Assembly (NCBI RefSeq): GCF_016745425.1
Contig: NZ_JAERVK010000011.1
Span: forward strand, 124,001-188,000
Direction of reading: 5' to 3'
Origin: Candidatus Methylomicrobium oryzae
Lineage (GTDB): Bacteria; Pseudomonadota; Gammaproteobacteria; Methylococcales; Methylomonadaceae
Length of the DNA: 64,000 bases
The notes below the pieces were generated by a model. The model searched no databases. It was not told the DNA's origin and worked only from the letters and a program-made list of their open reading frames with translations. Position numbers and translations under genes: made by a program. This document shows positions 34,098 through 39,993 of this stretch, one piece after another; the first letter of the stretch is position 1; each line of letters begins with the position of its first letter.

Positions 34098-35021
34098 ATG
34101 AGAGCGGTAAAAAATATTATGGTTTTTGACAATGATAAATATTTTTTATTTATGCTTAAAGGTTATTGTTATGCGAATGATGTGCGGATGGTTGAGGCGG
34201 AGTTCAATATTGATGGAATTAAAGAAGTGCAAAGATGCAGTCCCGGGCTAATTTTAATTTCACTCGACTTGATCAGTTCCTTGGAAAATAAAAGCATCGA
34301 AACCGATTTATTACGGTTGGCATGCAAAGACAAAGAAATAAAAATCTATGGTCTAAATAAAAGATCCGGTAATATTGTCTCGGCTGATATTCCTGAATGG
34401 ATTGACAGCTTCGTAAATAATCCCATGAATATTTCCGAAATTGACAAGCTTGTTAAATTCGTTTTTAGATATAATGGGTTACAGGATCGAAGAATACATA
34501 AAGAAAGGCGCATAATAAAAGACAGAAGGCAGGACAACATTAATAATAGCGGCTATGCTGGAAATCAAGAAATAAAAACCGGAAATCCTGATTATCCTTT
34601 TCATGAAAACGGAAAATCGCAAGACTTCTATGTCGATACCCGGAACAAATGTTTAATTCTAAAAGGCCATAAGATTGATCTGACTCCGAAGGAATTCGAA
34701 CTGATTGAGTATCTATCAACTGATCCTGACCGTATTTTTACACCGGATGAAATCGTAAAACACCTTTGGCCTGAAAATCATCGAGCAACAAAATCGGATC
34801 TTTATCAATATATTCACTTGTTACGGAAAAAAATAGAAAAAGACCATAATCATCCGCAATTCATATTAAATGCCAAAGGTTTTGGATACAAGCTGAACAT
34901 TTTAAGTCGGCAGAATTCAGGTGAAATTTCTGATTCACAAGGAAAAAGTACAGGAAGAGTCAAGCAAGCGGAACATTTGCCGATGGCGGCTGATTTACGC
35001 CGTAGATTTAGCGTGTTTTGA
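34098..35021 (+). CDS. Winged-helix regulator with degenerate receiver domain
   Basis: A 307-residue OmpR/PhoB-type protein. Residues 5-115 align with a receiver domain and keep the acidic pair (MVFDNDKYF), but the phospho-accepting Asp position is S55 (PGLILISLDL) and the conserved Lys before Pro is N108 (SFVNNPMN), so it is unlikely to be phosphorylated in the normal way. A charged linker (residues 120-175, with ERRIIKDRRQ) leads to a complete winged-helix domain at 178-270 (LTPKEFELIEYLSTDPDRIF; SDLYQYIHLLRKKIEK; FGYKLN). Codon use is AT-rich. It lies 845 bases upstream of the Fap-like cluster on the same strand and is the obvious candidate regulator. Confidence 0.88.
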   Translation: MRAVKNIMVFDNDKYFLFMLKGYCYANDVRMVEAEFNIDGIKEVQRCSPGLILISLDLISSLENKSIETDLLRLACKDKEIKIYGLNKRSGNIVSADIPEWIDSFVNNPMNISEIDKLVKFVFRYNGLQDRRIHKERRIIKDRRQDNINNSGYAGNQEIKTGNPDYPFHENGKSQDFYVDTRNKCLILKGHKIDLTPKEFELIEYLSTDPDRIFTPDEIVKHLWPENHRATKSDLYQYIHLLRKKIEKDHNHPQFILNAKGFGYKLNILSRQNSGEISDSQGKSTGRVKQAEHLPMAADLRRRFSVF

Positions 35022-35866
35022 CAAAGTCGGGCAATTGCAAAGAAGGCGTTTTGAATTTGGATGAATGAGGTTAATTGACGGTTAGACACGTGGTGGGCTG
35101 GCTGAATATTTAACCGATTTAAAGCAGTTTTTCCATCATACAAAGAAATGAAATGGTTCTTTTTTAAAGATGCTCATCAGTGCTGCTTTGACAGTCATAC
35201 TGCGTTTCGATGGGCAATTATCCGAAATCGCTTTTGAGAATTGAGGCTTTTGCCATGCCGATTATTGCCGTCAAGATTGAGGGCGTGTCGGGTATGCCCA
35301 CATGCCCTTAAATTAAACTCTCGTCGTTATACAAAAGTTCTGCAAACTCATACATTGGAGTTCAAAGCTTGCTTTGAGTGCCGTACTTAAGAGTGATCCA
35401 AAGCAAGCTTTGGACGCTTGCCAGTCTAATTATCGGGTCAGGCTATCCGAGGTGCATAACGACGAGAATTAAACCACTTCATTCTATTTCGGCAATCCAT
35501 GCCAAAATAAAGAATTTATCTTACCTTAACGGCATTGCCGCCTACAAAAAGGCATCTTCAAATTTGATTGTTCATTCAGTATTGTTCGATGCTGTAATCC
35601 TCTTCTCTTGCTTCAGTCTTTGAAAAAGGCATTTCTTCTCTGCCCCTAGGAAGACTTCATTTTACTTTTCATGAAGTATTTTTAGATGTTCTTATAAATA
35701 AAATTTAATGCTGATTTTATGGAATTTTAAACTGAAGCTGAAAGATACTTTGCCTCAGGTAATAGCCAATCTGATTCATTCTTTAAGGTTGAAGAGAAAG
35801 CTAGTTCCTATCTCTGTCGGATCGATATCCGATGGAATTCGAAACTTTAATTATGGAGTAATAGCT
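35022..35866. other. 845-base gap upstream of the Fap-like cluster
   Basis: AT-rich and without a credible gene. It contains a 12-base inverted repeat (tctcgtcgttat at 35319-35330, reverse complement at 35456-35467) and between its arms a tight palindrome tccaaagcaagctttgga (35397-35414) plus a near copy of that palindrome at about 35355. Such nesting suggests a small non-coding element. An AT-rich stretch just before the cluster (around 35690-35705, ttataaataaaat) could be promoter material. Confidence 0.45.
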
Positions 35867-36730
35867 ATGAATCATTTCAATGAGAAAATATGGGTTGCAA
35901 GTGTTCTTATGGCTTTGGGCTCTACTTCCAACGCTTGGGCGGATCCTGCTAGCACAACAGATGATGTGCAAGTTGCAATTGTGGATACGGCTAGCAAAGG
36001 TCAGGGCAATGCTGCTGCGAGCGACCACAGTTCGTCCACTTCCACTACGACCAACACGGATAGCAGTCAGGACAACGATACCATTACCAAGACCGATACC
36101 CAAACCCAAACCCAAACCTACAGCGACAACGATACGGCTACAAAGACCGATACCAAAACGATTTCCAAAACAGAAACCGGCGGTATTGGCGAAGATGGCA
36201 AGGCAAAAGCTGACAATAACGGTGCCGCAGTGAACGGCAGCGGATCGGCAACTTCCAACAAAACCTATACCGGCGGCCAGGGCGAGGATGCCTATGTAAA
36301 AGCTAAAGACAATTCGGCTGCTGCGAATAACGGCAACGTAACTTCGACTGTTGCGACTTACGAGTCGGCTGTCAAGGGAGACGGCTCCGCATCGGCTAAT
36401 GTTGGAAATGCCACTGCGACCTATACGGCGACCTACATAGAACAGAAGCTTTTCGGCTTCGGAAATGCCGCTTCAGGTTCCGGTGATGTTACCGTTAACA
36501 ATCAAAAATTGGACGGTGTGGTAACCGGAATTGCGGCTGTCGTGCCGATTGAGGATAAATTTTCGGTTGTGGCTGCACTCGATGCTAATAAAATCAATGG
36601 TTCGGTTATAGGGAATGCGGGCATTACCCAAACTTTCCAAAATTCAGGCACCGCTTTAAACCAACAGAACATACAGGTTAGCGGTACTATCAATATTGGT
36701 GATGCAACTGCAACAGTGCCGGTACCTTAA
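35867..36730 (+). CDS. Secreted Cys-free Thr/Asn/Gly-rich repeat protein, candidate fibre subunit
   Basis: A 287-residue protein starting at ATG 35867 (GGAG at 35854-35857 upstream; the longer frame from 35708 would hide the signal peptide). Signal peptide cut after AWA (residue 25). Residues 55-102 are Thr/Asp/Gln/Ser-rich (TQTQTQTYSDNDTATKTDTK). Two imperfect 31-residue repeats follow at 105-135 and 136-166, both beginning GG-x-GED. The C-terminus has GITQTFQNSGTALNQQN, a motif shared with the next gene. There is no cysteine. The composition and repeats resemble amyloid fibre subunits such as FapB/FapC, but I do not recognise a direct homologue, and known FapC proteins carry a CxxC that is missing here. 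Confidence 0.8.
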   Translation: MNHFNEKIWVASVLMALGSTSNAWADPASTTDDVQVAIVDTASKGQGNAAASDHSSSTSTTTNTDSSQDNDTITKTDTQTQTQTYSDNDTATKTDTKTISKTETGGIGEDGKAKADNNGAAVNGSGSATSNKTYTGGQGEDAYVKAKDNSAAANNGNVTSTVATYESAVKGDGSASANVGNATATYTATYIEQKLFGFGNAASGSGDVTVNNQKLDGVVTGIAAVVPIEDKFSVVAALDANKINGSVIGNAGITQTFQNSGTALNQQNIQVSGTINIGDATATVPVP

Positions 36731-36821
36731 TGTTTATTGATTGTTTTAGTTAATAGATAGCCGATAGCCGGTGAATGGTGGATTGTTCACCGGCTATCGG
36801 TCGACAAGGCGCAACTGTACG

Positions 36822-36826
36822 AGGAG
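36822..36826 (+). promoter_or_regulatory. Ribosome-binding site of the small secreted protein
   Basis: AGGAG six bases before ATG 36833, which selects this start over the longer overlapping frame in another phase. Confidence 0.75.
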
Positions 36827-36832
36827 AACAAC

Positions 36833-37198
36833 ATGGAAGCGATATTCAAGAACTTCTTTTTAATGGCATTACTCATGATGGCGGGAAGTTCCACGGTAAA
36901 TGCCGACTCTTTTCAAACATCGAAAAAGTTGATGCTGTTGGCTTCCGCCGAAAAAGCGTTGTCGGAAGAGTTGGATAAGGCGCGGGGCCGGGAAGGCGTG
37001 GATGTGGCAACGTTGAATCTCCAGAACGTCCAGGCTACGCTCAACAACAATCAGGCCTCCAATAATGTGAGCGGTTACAACGTGATAGCGGATGGGTCAT
37101 TTGCCGGTGCCAGCGGCATTACCAGTGTGGTTCAAAATAGCGGTAATAACGTCATCATCCAAGATACCACTATTGTGAATGTAACAGTCGCACCTTAA
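36833..37198 (+). CDS. Small secreted protein with QNSG motif
   Basis: A 121-residue exported protein (signal peptide MEAIFKNFFLMALLMMAGSS, cut after VNA, residue 24). A helical, charged middle (KLMLLASAEKALSEELDKAR) is followed by an Asn/Gln-rich beta segment: LNNNQASNNVSGYNVIADGS then ASGITSVVQNSGNNVIIQD. The GIT-x3-QNSG string is the same as in the preceding protein. It could be a minor fibre component, nucleator or chaperone; the function is inferred from context only. It is 102 bases after the repeat protein and 23 bases before the C39 peptidase gene. Confidence 0.8.
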   Translation: MEAIFKNFFLMALLMMAGSSTVNADSFQTSKKLMLLASAEKALSEELDKARGREGVDVATLNLQNVQATLNNNQASNNVSGYNVIADGSFAGASGITSVVQNSGNNVIIQDTTIVNVTVAP

Positions 37199-37221
37199 CA
37201 AAGCTATCGAATATCAATAAT

Positions 37222-37914
37222 ATGCGACGTTTTTTGGGCACATACATCCTGTTCGCTTTACCTGTATTCTGTAGCAATGCGGGTTCCCTCAATCTAAATG
37301 GCATTGCCGGCGGCGGGAATTATGAGCTGCCGGTGACGACTTTTTTAGAGCGGCGCTTCAAAACGGTTTACAAACAACAATACGATTTCAGTTGCGGTTC
37401 GGCGGCATTGGCCAGTCTGCTGACTTTTCATTATGAAGATATCGTCAGCGAACGCGATGTGTTTATCGATATGTATCTGAATGGCAATCAGGAAAAGATT
37501 CAAAAGCAGGGATTTTCGTTACTCGATATCAAACGGTTTCTGGAAAGGCGGGGGTATCGCTCCGATGGGTTCAAAATTAATCTGGCTCAATTGGTTACTG
37601 CCGATGTTCCGGCGCTTACCATCATTAATAACAACGGATACATGCATTTCGTGATTATAAAAGGCGTCACCGATCAGGAAATTCTGGTGGGAGATCCCGC
37701 GGTAGGCGTAAAAGCGATTCCTCGCGATGAGTTCGAAGCCATGTGGCAGAATCGTATTTTGTTTTTAATTTATGACAAATCGGATCTGGCTGGGAAGCAT
37801 TTTCAAGATGAAGATGAGTGGGCTTTTCGGGTCAAGGCGCCTTTAGGGGCCGGTGTCGATCGAAAAAGCCTGAGCGAATTTAATTTGCTGCAACCTTACT
37901 TCAAGGATTTTTAA
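37222..37914 (+). CDS. Periplasmic C39-family cysteine peptidase (FapD-like)
   Basis: A 230-residue protein with an N-terminal signal sequence (MRRFLGTYILFALPVFCSNA) and a C39 peptidase fold. The catalytic set is complete: oxyanion Q53 and C58 in QQYDFSCGSAALASLL, H142 in YMHFVIIKG and D158 in LVGDPAVG. C39 peptidases classically cut after double-glycine leaders. In Fap operons a stand-alone C39-like protein, FapD, sits next to the fibre and porin genes, as here. Its stop overlaps the next start as TAATG, so it is translationally coupled to the gene whose product has a GG site. Confidence 0.9.
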   Translation: MRRFLGTYILFALPVFCSNAGSLNLNGIAGGGNYELPVTTFLERRFKTVYKQQYDFSCGSAALASLLTFHYEDIVSERDVFIDMYLNGNQEKIQKQGFSLLDIKRFLERRGYRSDGFKINLAQLVTADVPALTIINNNGYMHFVIIKGVTDQEILVGDPAVGVKAIPRDEFEAMWQNRILFLIYDKSDLAGKHFQDEDEWAFRVKAPLGAGVDRKSLSEFNLLQPYFKDF

Positions 37915-38426
37915 TGCAGAGGATGCAGGGAGTGCAGAACGTGAATATCAATAAAACTTTCGTCTACCCTAAACTCATGCAGACAGTGTTGCGGATAGCG
38001 TTTTGCGGCGTCTTTGGCGCGGCAAGGCAGGTGTTAGCCAATGAAATGCCGGACATTGAAAGCCAACGATTTGTCCATTGGGAACGTGCTTCCGACAGCG
38101 AACTGGATCTGCTCAGGGGTGGGTTTATGCTTCCGAACGGGATGAGCATCGACTTTAGTATCCAGAGAATCATCTCTTTGAATAATGAAGTCATCTTATC
38201 TTCATTCTCTCAATTACCGAGCAATATCACATTAATTCAGAATGGCGACTTCTCGCAAGCACCTGCTCTCGGCATGGCCGGTTTGGGGACGGTAATTCAA
38301 AATAACTTGGATAACCAAACGATTAAGTCACTCACCAATATCGATTTAACCGTAAGTAATATTAAAAGTATGCAATTAAATTCCGGAGCCATGGTTTTTA
38401 ACAGCCTTATTATGTCCAATCGGTAA
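37914..38426 (+). CDS. Secreted protein with ELxxLxGG double-glycine site
   Basis: A 170-residue protein. The hydrophobic signal core (TVLRIAFCGVFGA) starts after about 22 residues, so either the N-region is long or translation begins at ATG 37977; coupling to the C39 gene favours 37914. Soon after the signal comes SDSELDLLRGG (residues 60-70), which fits the double-glycine consensus LSxxELxxIxGG. The remainder is beta-like (MSIDFSIQRIISLNNEVI) and ends with GLGTVIQNNLDNQTIKSL, a relative of the QNSG motif in the two upstream proteins. I infer it is the substrate of the adjacent C39 peptidase. Confidence 0.8.
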   Translation: MQRMQGVQNVNINKTFVYPKLMQTVLRIAFCGVFGAARQVLANEMPDIESQRFVHWERASDSELDLLRGGFMLPNGMSIDFSIQRIISLNNEVILSSFSQLPSNITLIQNGDFSQAPALGMAGLGTVIQNNLDNQTIKSLTNIDLTVSNIKSMQLNSGAMVFNSLIMSNR

Positions 38427-38558
38427 TGCGGGCTAAGTGAATTTTCCTCATAGGCCGCACTTGATAATTTAATTATTATTTTTTTGAGTTAAGAGCAATT
38501 AATCAATAAATCAAAAAATTCAGTGGCCGCCATTCTAATCCTATAATAAAAAGAATAT

Positions 38559-39890
38559 ATGAAGAGCAATTTTGGATATGGAAAATTTCTTCAATGCCGG
38601 ATTGTTAAAGGGGTTATATTTATCTGGTGTTGTTTTTTTGCGAGCAGGAGTTATGGGGTAACAGGCAGGCAAACCGATGAATTAGCGGAATATAAAAAAC
38701 TTATTGCCGAGCAGCAAAAGCAATTTGAAAGACAGCAACAAATAATTGCCGAGCAAGGCAGACAGCTGGAACTGTTAAAAAAGCGCATCGATTCTTTGGC
38801 AAGTCAATCGGGACAGAACAATCAGGGCCTCCCCGCGCAAGCATCGGGTCAGTCTCAAATGGCTTCGGCAAAAAACGATAGAGGTCCTTCATCAAAGTCG
38901 GCCCTACTTCCCTCCAAACCCGTCGGCCAGGCGCCTCCGGAAGTAAAAAAACAAAGGCCCCCCGAGATTCCCAGATTAAGCCAGACCGTTGGCGGCGTGT
39001 TGACCCGCAAAAACAACCTGGTTTTTGAGCCTTCGATTTTGTACAGCTACTACGATAATAATCGGATTTTCCTGGATGCCTATACCCTGCTTCCGGCTAT
39101 TGCAATCGGCCTCATCGATGTTCGCCAAATCAAACAGCACACGCTGATGGGTAACGTCGGGCTGCGGTATGGTTTGACTGACCGGTTGGAACTTGAGCTG
39201 AGGGTTCCGTACGTATACCGTACCCAAGAGCAGCGCGCCCGGCCATTGGATCTTTCCCCGTCGGGCGTCGATAAAGTTTTCGAGACCGATGGAAGCGATA
39301 TCGGCGATATTCAGTTCGCCGGCCGCTATCAGCTCAACTCGGGCTCTGACGGCTGGCCCATTTTTGTCGCCAATATGCTGGCGACGGTGCCTACCGGAAA
39401 AAGTCCTTTCGATATTCCACAAATTTATGCGACAGGGATTCCGGGCTTTAATTTTCCTGCGGAGTTGCCGACGGGGGTCGGATTTTTTAGCGCCCAGCCC
39501 AGCATTACAGCGCTTTACCCTACGGATCCCGCGGTATTCTTCGGTAATATCGGGTATATTTATAATGCGGAAACAAGCACCAATGCCGGCGATTTTGATC
39601 CGGGCGATACCCTAGGGATAAGTTTTGGCCTGGGTTTCGGTATCAATGAACGCTCCTCATTCAGTCTGGGATACTCTCACCGGCATATTTTCAATTCTTC
39701 TCTTGATGGGGTGGACATAGAAGGAAGTGCAGTCGATATCGGGCAACTTTTGGTAGGTTACTCCTATAAATATTCCAAAAGAACCACATTCAACTTATCT
39801 TTATCTTTAGGCGCCACAACCGATGCGCCGGATGTTACGCTTGAATACCGGATGCCTATGACTTTCGATGTGGCTAATCTATTTAAATAG
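38559..39890 (+). CDS. Coiled-coil plus beta-barrel outer-membrane protein (FapF-like)
   Basis: A 443-residue exported protein. After a signal region (VKGVIFIWCCFFASRSYG), residues 38-84 form a strong coiled coil (EYKKLIAEQQKQFERQQQII and onward), then a Gln/Ser/Pro linker to about 145, then a barrel of about 290 residues with alternating aromatic strands (NNLVFEPSILYSYYDNN; GNVGLRYGLTDRLELELRVP; SFSLGYSHRHIF). Short periplasmic coiled coil plus a barrel is the layout of FapF, the outer-membrane pore for Fap amyloid subunits. Last gene of the cluster; an inverted repeat follows 35 bases later. Confidence 0.86.
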   Translation: MKSNFGYGKFLQCRIVKGVIFIWCCFFASRSYGVTGRQTDELAEYKKLIAEQQKQFERQQQIIAEQGRQLELLKKRIDSLASQSGQNNQGLPAQASGQSQMASAKNDRGPSSKSALLPSKPVGQAPPEVKKQRPPEIPRLSQTVGGVLTRKNNLVFEPSILYSYYDNNRIFLDAYTLLPAIAIGLIDVRQIKQHTLMGNVGLRYGLTDRLELELRVPYVYRTQEQRARPLDLSPSGVDKVFETDGSDIGDIQFAGRYQLNSGSDGWPIFVANMLATVPTGKSPFDIPQIYATGIPGFNFPAELPTGVGFFSAQPSITALYPTDPAVFFGNIGYIYNAETSTNAGDFDPGDTLGISFGLGFGINERSSFSLGYSHRHIFNSSLDGVDIEGSAVDIGQLLVGYSYKYSKRTTFNLSLSLGATTDAPDVTLEYRMPMTFDVANLFK

Positions 39891-39924: not shown

Positions 39925-39993
39925 CAATGTCATTAAGTTAAGCCATCATCCCGGCATTCTTTGCCGGGATGACGAACTTTTTGTCTTAACTTA
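39925..39993. repeat. Palindromic element with caatgtcattaagttaag end, copy 1
   Basis: An outer pair (39933-39942 ttaagttaag; 39985-39993 cttaactta) encloses a stable inner hairpin catcccggc/gccgggatg (39947-39955, 39963-39971). It lies 35 bases after the FapF-like stop and could end that transcript. Its left end matches the left end of the element at 41021. Confidence 0.75.

Follow-up and report, generated by a model that had tools for sequence, protein, structure and literature searches.

We analyzed a locus in a 64,000-nucleotide stretch of the genome of Candidatus Methylomicrobium oryzae (contig NZ_JAERVK010000011.1, positions 124,001 to 188,000; hereinafter, the window, to which all coordinates refer unless another locus is named). 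At 34098-39890, all on the plus strand, it encodes an OmpR-type regulator (P1) followed by five genes for exported proteins (P2-P6) with Sec signal peptides that were called by eye, without a predictor. The guanine plus cytosine (GC) content at the locus is 0.35-0.49 compared to about 0.50-0.62 across most of the window. The first-pass annotation, made from the nucleotide sequence, had described a regulator and five consecutive genes for exported proteins in AT-richer DNA and proposed a diverged functional-amyloid export system of the Fap type. The gene layout is confirmed: the six-gene set is found again in relatives, so that the locus cannot be ascribed to chance, and the P4 and P5 genes share one base (TAATG). 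The order of P2-P6 is that of fapB-C-D-E-F without fapA, rather than different from the Fap order as had been stated. There is no plausible open reading frame for FapA between P1 and P2; loss of FapA is known in true Fap operons too.

The Fap connection is clearest for P4 and P6. P4 (37222..37914, plus strand) is a periplasmic C39 cysteine peptidase (Pfam Peptidase_C39, 6.7e-20) with the characteristic features of FapD, namely, a C39 domain, a Sec signal and an intact active site, in which Cys58, His142, Asp158 and Gln52 are invariant among 22 homologues. Its top family match is NCBIfam FapD (1.7e-36), followed by FilB (1.8e-33), and its score against the FapD equivalog, 125.6 of 330 bits, is under the NCBIfam cut-off. 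P6 (38559..39890, plus strand) is an outer-membrane FapF-like transporter that consists of a periplasmic coiled-coil helix (residues 41-87), a disordered linker and a barrel (residues 153-437), with two PTG motifs, PTGKSPF and PTGVGFF, both of which align to FapF. The match to NCBIfam FapF is strong (E 7.5e-45) and under the equivalog cut-off, residues 152-435 match the FapF crystal structures by sequence (E about 1e-29), and an AlphaFold model made from 21 family members retrieves FapF (5O67) as the top fold (E 4.7e-23, target TM-score 0.83), with COG4313 second. Thus, the assignment of the C39 protein to FapD and of the barrel to FapF, rather than to other known export channels, was borne out.

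Phylogenetic analysis shows that these relationships do not amount to membership in the canonical families. In the tree of 70 C39 proteins, canonical FapD (18 proteins), the type represented by this locus, here denoted the RGG type (41), and a third group, class C (11), are each split off by a well-supported branch, and the tree of 64 barrels contains the same three groups. In both trees, the locus falls in a separate clade next to FapD and FapF rather than within either, and almost certainly belongs to a sister family of Fap, in agreement with the earlier suspicion of a distinct subtype. An alternative reading is that of a canonical Fap operon that has evolved rapidly and produces amyloid fibres of the FapC type; this would fit the fapBCDEF gene order, the FapD- and FapF-family genes and the profile matches of P5 and P3 to FapE described below. 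However, the C39 and barrel clades are separate with full support; fapA is absent; the published minimal Fap repeat (PMC3792158), G-x4-N-x3-G-x6-N, occurs in none of P2, P3 and P5, compared to three copies in each of the FapB and FapC controls; and Pseudoxanthomonas daejeonensis (G112) carries a canonical fap operon and an RGG-type locus separated by about 88 kb of a single contig. This alternative is highly improbable and can be considered largely refuted. Of the proposed diverged functional-amyloid export system, the link to Fap stands, through P4 and P6, whereas the amyloid part is no more than plausible, the defining Fap repeat being absent.

The RGG-type family is common and widespread: at least 594 relatives were confirmed when each species was represented by one genome, and the 80 kept include representatives of Methylobacter, Nitrosomonas, Colwellia, Duganella, Lysobacter and Geotalea. 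The same gene set is present in relatives from the same family or order (loci L032-L038), in gammaproteobacteria (L096-L104), in Cupriavidus (L081) and in the alphaproteobacterium Croceicoccus (L083), where the annotation reads hypothetical protein, C39 family peptidase, hypothetical protein and transporter, and nothing more. Among 398 sampled genomes of the phylum, 38 reach 1e-30 or better in the C39 comparison. The scores form two groups, and 16 genomes exceed the 210 bits taken as the lower bound of the higher group, a boundary set after the gap had been seen. Near the host, the distribution is patchy, and the locus is absent from the single genome of the same genus that was searched.

The most informative feature of the locus turned out to be the double-glycine site that had been spotted in the first-pass annotation. 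It belongs to P5 (37914..38426, plus strand), a FapE-like secreted protein that comprises a Sec signal up to about residue 42, a leader (residues 43-70) and a cargo of about 100 amino acids with a QNNLDNQ unit. The leader, NEMPDIESQRFVHWERASDSELDLLRGG (38040..38123, plus strand), ends in SDSELDLLRGG, with the cut predicted before Phe71, 28 residues past the likely signal-peptidase site (median of 25 across loci). It contains the elements of double-glycine leaders, that is, a hydrophobic residue at -12 (Ala in the window), Leu at -7, a hydrophobic residue at -4 and Gly at -2 and -1, and closely resembles the consensus L(-12)xxxE(-8)L(-7)xxxxG(-2)G(-1) of the leaders processed by peptidase-containing ATP-binding cassette transporters (PCATs); in the PCAT1-CtA complex, the helical part of the leader spans -10 to -4 (PMC6959990). 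In a template-free AlphaFold model of P5, of middling confidence (pLDDT 66), residues 61-67 are helical, and these correspond exactly to -10 to -4. In 99 RGG-type loci, the protein encoded beside the peptidase has Leu at -7 in 98% of the cases and RGG in 95, compared to L...RGG in 2.6% of the 654 other open reading frames of the same loci, with the caveat that the loci are related to each other and the counts represent non-independent events.

A second leader of this kind is found in P3 (36833..37198, plus strand), a small secreted protein with the FapE-like leader motif SEELDKARGR (residues 44-53) and a glutamine/asparagine (Q/N) unit, VVQNSGNNVIIQDTTIVNV. P3 and P5, which were assigned by position beside the C39 gene and by separate clean alignments, are homologous over most of their length (hhalign E 2.5e-14). 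Across 100 loci, the P3 leader element has Leu at -7 in 97%, and its site ends in RGG in many betaproteobacteria and in an RGR-like sequence elsewhere, including the window. Furthermore, a similar motif, LxxxRG(G/A/T), is present in the coiled-coil-to-barrel linker of roughly one in four of the 89 barrels compared; most of these belong to betaproteobacteria and Xanthomonadales (for example, L081 6533-7984, L133 2424-3746 and L144 7238-8578). A cut by FapD in this linker has been suggested before (Rouse 2017, PMC5557850).

Judging from these features, P4 likely cleaves P5. Alternatively, the LxxxRGG motif might remain uncut and serve as a docking or targeting signal held by P4 or P6, with P4 acting as a chaperone, similarly to the inactive C39-like domains that play this role in some type 1 systems; the Arg or Lys, rather than Gly, at -1 of canonical FapE, which is unusual for a C39 site, would be compatible with such a role. 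This is unlikely given that P4 retains the Cys, His, Asp and Gln, that the Cys38Ala mutant of Pseudomonas FapD loses secretion (PMC5557850), and that the site in P5 is the strict Gly-Gly required by the narrow C39 active site (PMC6959990).

Cleavage of P5 by P4 would bear directly on the canonical system. The small proteins of the locus, previously left unmatched, show short profile matches to FapE: P5 matches canonical FapE with an hhalign E of 6e-8, over 32 columns only, centred on the leader site, and P3 aligns with the central part of FapE (E 1e-7 over 45 columns) and, weakly, with the FapB repeat (3e-5). In the profile alignment, the P5 site falls on the conserved motif of canonical FapE, LxDxELxxMRG(R/K) followed by Y or F. 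The 20 canonical FapE sequences examined all conform to [LVI]x[DES]x[EQRV][LM]xx[LMIQ]RG[RK][YFA], which fits the leader consensus except for the Arg or Lys at -1; six of these sequences come from genomes in which FapF scores above the NCBIfam cut-off. Rouse 2017 (PMC5557850) found Cys38 of FapD to be essential and FapE to be alone in lacking N-terminal peptides, reported no canonical C39 site in the Fap proteins, and left the target of FapD unclear. In a review from December 2025 (PMC12822426), FapD is still described as thought to process FapE and FapF. Considering the correspondence between the leaders, we infer that FapD may cut FapE after RG(R/K). A cut after Arg or Lys leaves the same end as trypsin, and therefore tryptic mass spectrometry could not have revealed it. 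The RGG type predicts both the protein and the bond cut by the essential Fap protease: there is an unmistakable double-glycine site where FapE has a conserved, disguised one, which makes the exact bond open to test.

P2 (35867..36730, plus strand) is a secreted low-complexity protein of 287 amino acids, with the start placed at 35867 because the orthologues start at a matching Met. It lacks Cys, its low-complexity middle part varies widely in length among the relatives (133 to more than 600 residues), and the protein ends in a single C-terminal Q/N unit, AGI..xxQNxGxxxLxQQxVxxQGNxxV, that is related to the P3 unit; in the absence of Fap repeats, the original designation of a repeat protein was too strong. 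A P2-type unit was found by profile in an open reading frame other than P3 and P5 in 58 of 100 loci. P2 is the strongest candidate for the major subunit at the surface. In some loci, there are two tandem P2-like proteins, each with a C-terminal Q/N unit (L113 3097-5438, L125 3657-5461). Between the P2 and P3 genes lies a perfect 15-bp stem-loop (36761..36800, no strand assigned), a candidate attenuator or mRNA stabiliser. The gap between these genes is strongly folded across 63 loci (median z of -3.2; -6.7 in the window) compared to an equal-length coding control (-0.27). The sequence differences between the stems of different loci speak for a conserved function, and the recurrence of a strong stem-loop after P2 suggests that this protein is made in excess.

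We consider it likely that the locus encodes a sister Fap-type system in which P4 trims P5 and P3, P6 exports and P2 is the main surface protein. Under this scheme, P2-P6 would all enter the periplasm by Sec; P4 would recognize the bacteriocin-type double-glycine leader that immediately follows the Sec signal in P5 and P3, and cut after RGG in P5 and after RGR in the P3 of the window; and the trimmed P3 and P5, along with P2, would exit through the FapF-like channel P6. P2 would probably be the bulk surface or fibre protein, with the stem-loop behind its gene allowing it to exceed the machinery, whereas P3 and P5 could be minor subunits, similar to FapE/FapB, with an initiating or anchoring role. 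That the products form a fibre is plausible, with the balance slightly in favor. A system for secretion of soluble or surface-bound small proteins, such as an adhesin, a signal or a bacteriocin-like product, without any fibre, would also account for the small size and bacteriocin-like leaders of P3 and P5, the low complexity and single Q/N unit of P2, and the several small exported LxxxxMDxxTAG proteins of the class C relatives. It is nevertheless doubtful: Q/N units are present in P2, P3 and P5, that of P3 weakly matches the FapB repeat, and no toxin or immunity-like gene was seen in the locus.

Several observations count against the sister-system scheme. The P3 of the window reads RGR rather than RGG and its P6 carries no linker motif, leaving P5 as the only clear substrate here; the Fap repeat is missing from P2, the proposed surface protein; and the fold search with the P5 model gave no match at E 0.001 or better. 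In Pseudomonas-type FapE, the predicted cut, at about residue 40, would leave 30 of the first 70 unseen residues unexplained and can be only part of the story. Finally, no experiment on the RGG-type family was found in the literature.

The class C loci, which combine a C39 peptidase with a FapF-like barrel, present a related pattern. Several of their small Sec-type proteins contain a leader-like sequence, LsxxqMDxvTAG, soon after the signal peptide (L040 4028-4879 and 7257-7583, L041 4712-5395, L045 3999-5367, L051 5199-6986); the pattern was not seen in seven other class C loci. It is an evenly balanced proposition that a periplasmic C39 peptidase, a FapF-like barrel and a double-glycine leader behind a Sec signal constitute a general pathway with at least three branches, namely, canonical Fap (RG-R/K in FapE), the RGG type and class C (LsxxqMDxvTAG). 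If such a pathway exists, FapD would cut FapE after RG(R/K) and would also cleave the linker of the transporter in several lineages.

Among the known systems, Fap (fapABCDEF; FapF structures 5O65/5O67/5O68) shares with the locus the B-C-D-E-F order, a putatively FapE-related protein beside the peptidase, a FapF-type barrel with a coiled coil and PTG motifs, and a periplasmic C39 peptidase. The locus differs in the lack of FapA and of the 3x39-residue FapBC repeats, in its own clade in both trees, and in its true double-glycine site and local regulator. The putative Fil pilus of Acinetobacter (FilB C39, FilC), compared on the C39 and barrel families only, provides distant matches to both (1.8e-33 and 7.1e-12, respectively) that score below FapD and FapF. 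The PCAT substrates and peptidases (PCAT1/CtA, LahT) have in common with the locus the leader consensus, the -10 to -4 helix and the C39 peptidase family, but here no ABC transporter accompanies the peptidase, which is a protein of its own in the periplasm, and the leader comes after a Sec signal. The COG4313 outer-membrane channels (4RL8), the second-best fold match to P6, are uptake channels that match more weakly and are not reported with C39 peptidases (PMC6173800).

That FapD and FapF are parts of larger families has been noted before (PMC3792158; PMC6173800), and therefore the existence of relatives is not new as such. A literature search, with supplementary files outside its reach, found no paper describing the RGG type; what appears to be new is the leader, together with its correspondence to FapE and the definition of the family. 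Genome surveys that require the FapBC repeat (PMC12392863) would have missed this family.

The regulator P1 (34098..35021, plus strand) is an OmpR/PhoB-type protein by Pfam comparison, with a C-terminal winged helix (Trans_reg_C, E 1.8e-19), an Arg-rich linker and a receiver-like N-terminal domain. The latter has no match to Pfam Response_reg, the family profile matches receiver structures weakly, and Ser55 occupies the position expected for the phospho-accepting Asp; by these sequence features, the receiver is degenerate. Orthologues of P1 adjoin the same type of locus in Methylobacter, Colwellia, Kineobactrum and Paraglaciecola, and those of the last three genera keep Asp at this position. 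The inter-domain linker, RRxxxERRxxxDRR (34490-34540), is conserved in the orthologues. A sigma-54-type (Fis-family) regulator is encoded near 11 of 100 RGG-type loci, including the related L035, in place of the OmpR-type one (L035 9969-11393, L096 3795-5120, L098 3396-4784, L100 3594-4940). In the window, the sigma-54 promoter pattern yields 11 matches compared to 11.3 expected, none of them at the locus, and the sigma-70 promoter scan returned fewer matches than shuffled sequences.

We also considered Ser60, beside the catalytic Cys of P4, versus Ala as a marker of GG versus GR/K sites, and dropped it, given that Ala occupies this site in other GG-cutting C39 peptidases. On the 3' side of the operon, there is a terminator-like hairpin (39946..39972, plus strand; consensus match only). 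Finally, an element resembling a miniature inverted-repeat transposable element, with 21-bp terminal inverted repeats, TTAAACTCTCGTCGTTATACA, lies between P1 and P2 (35313-35473) and has a dozen partial matches elsewhere in the same genome, the longer of which are 73-80% identical.

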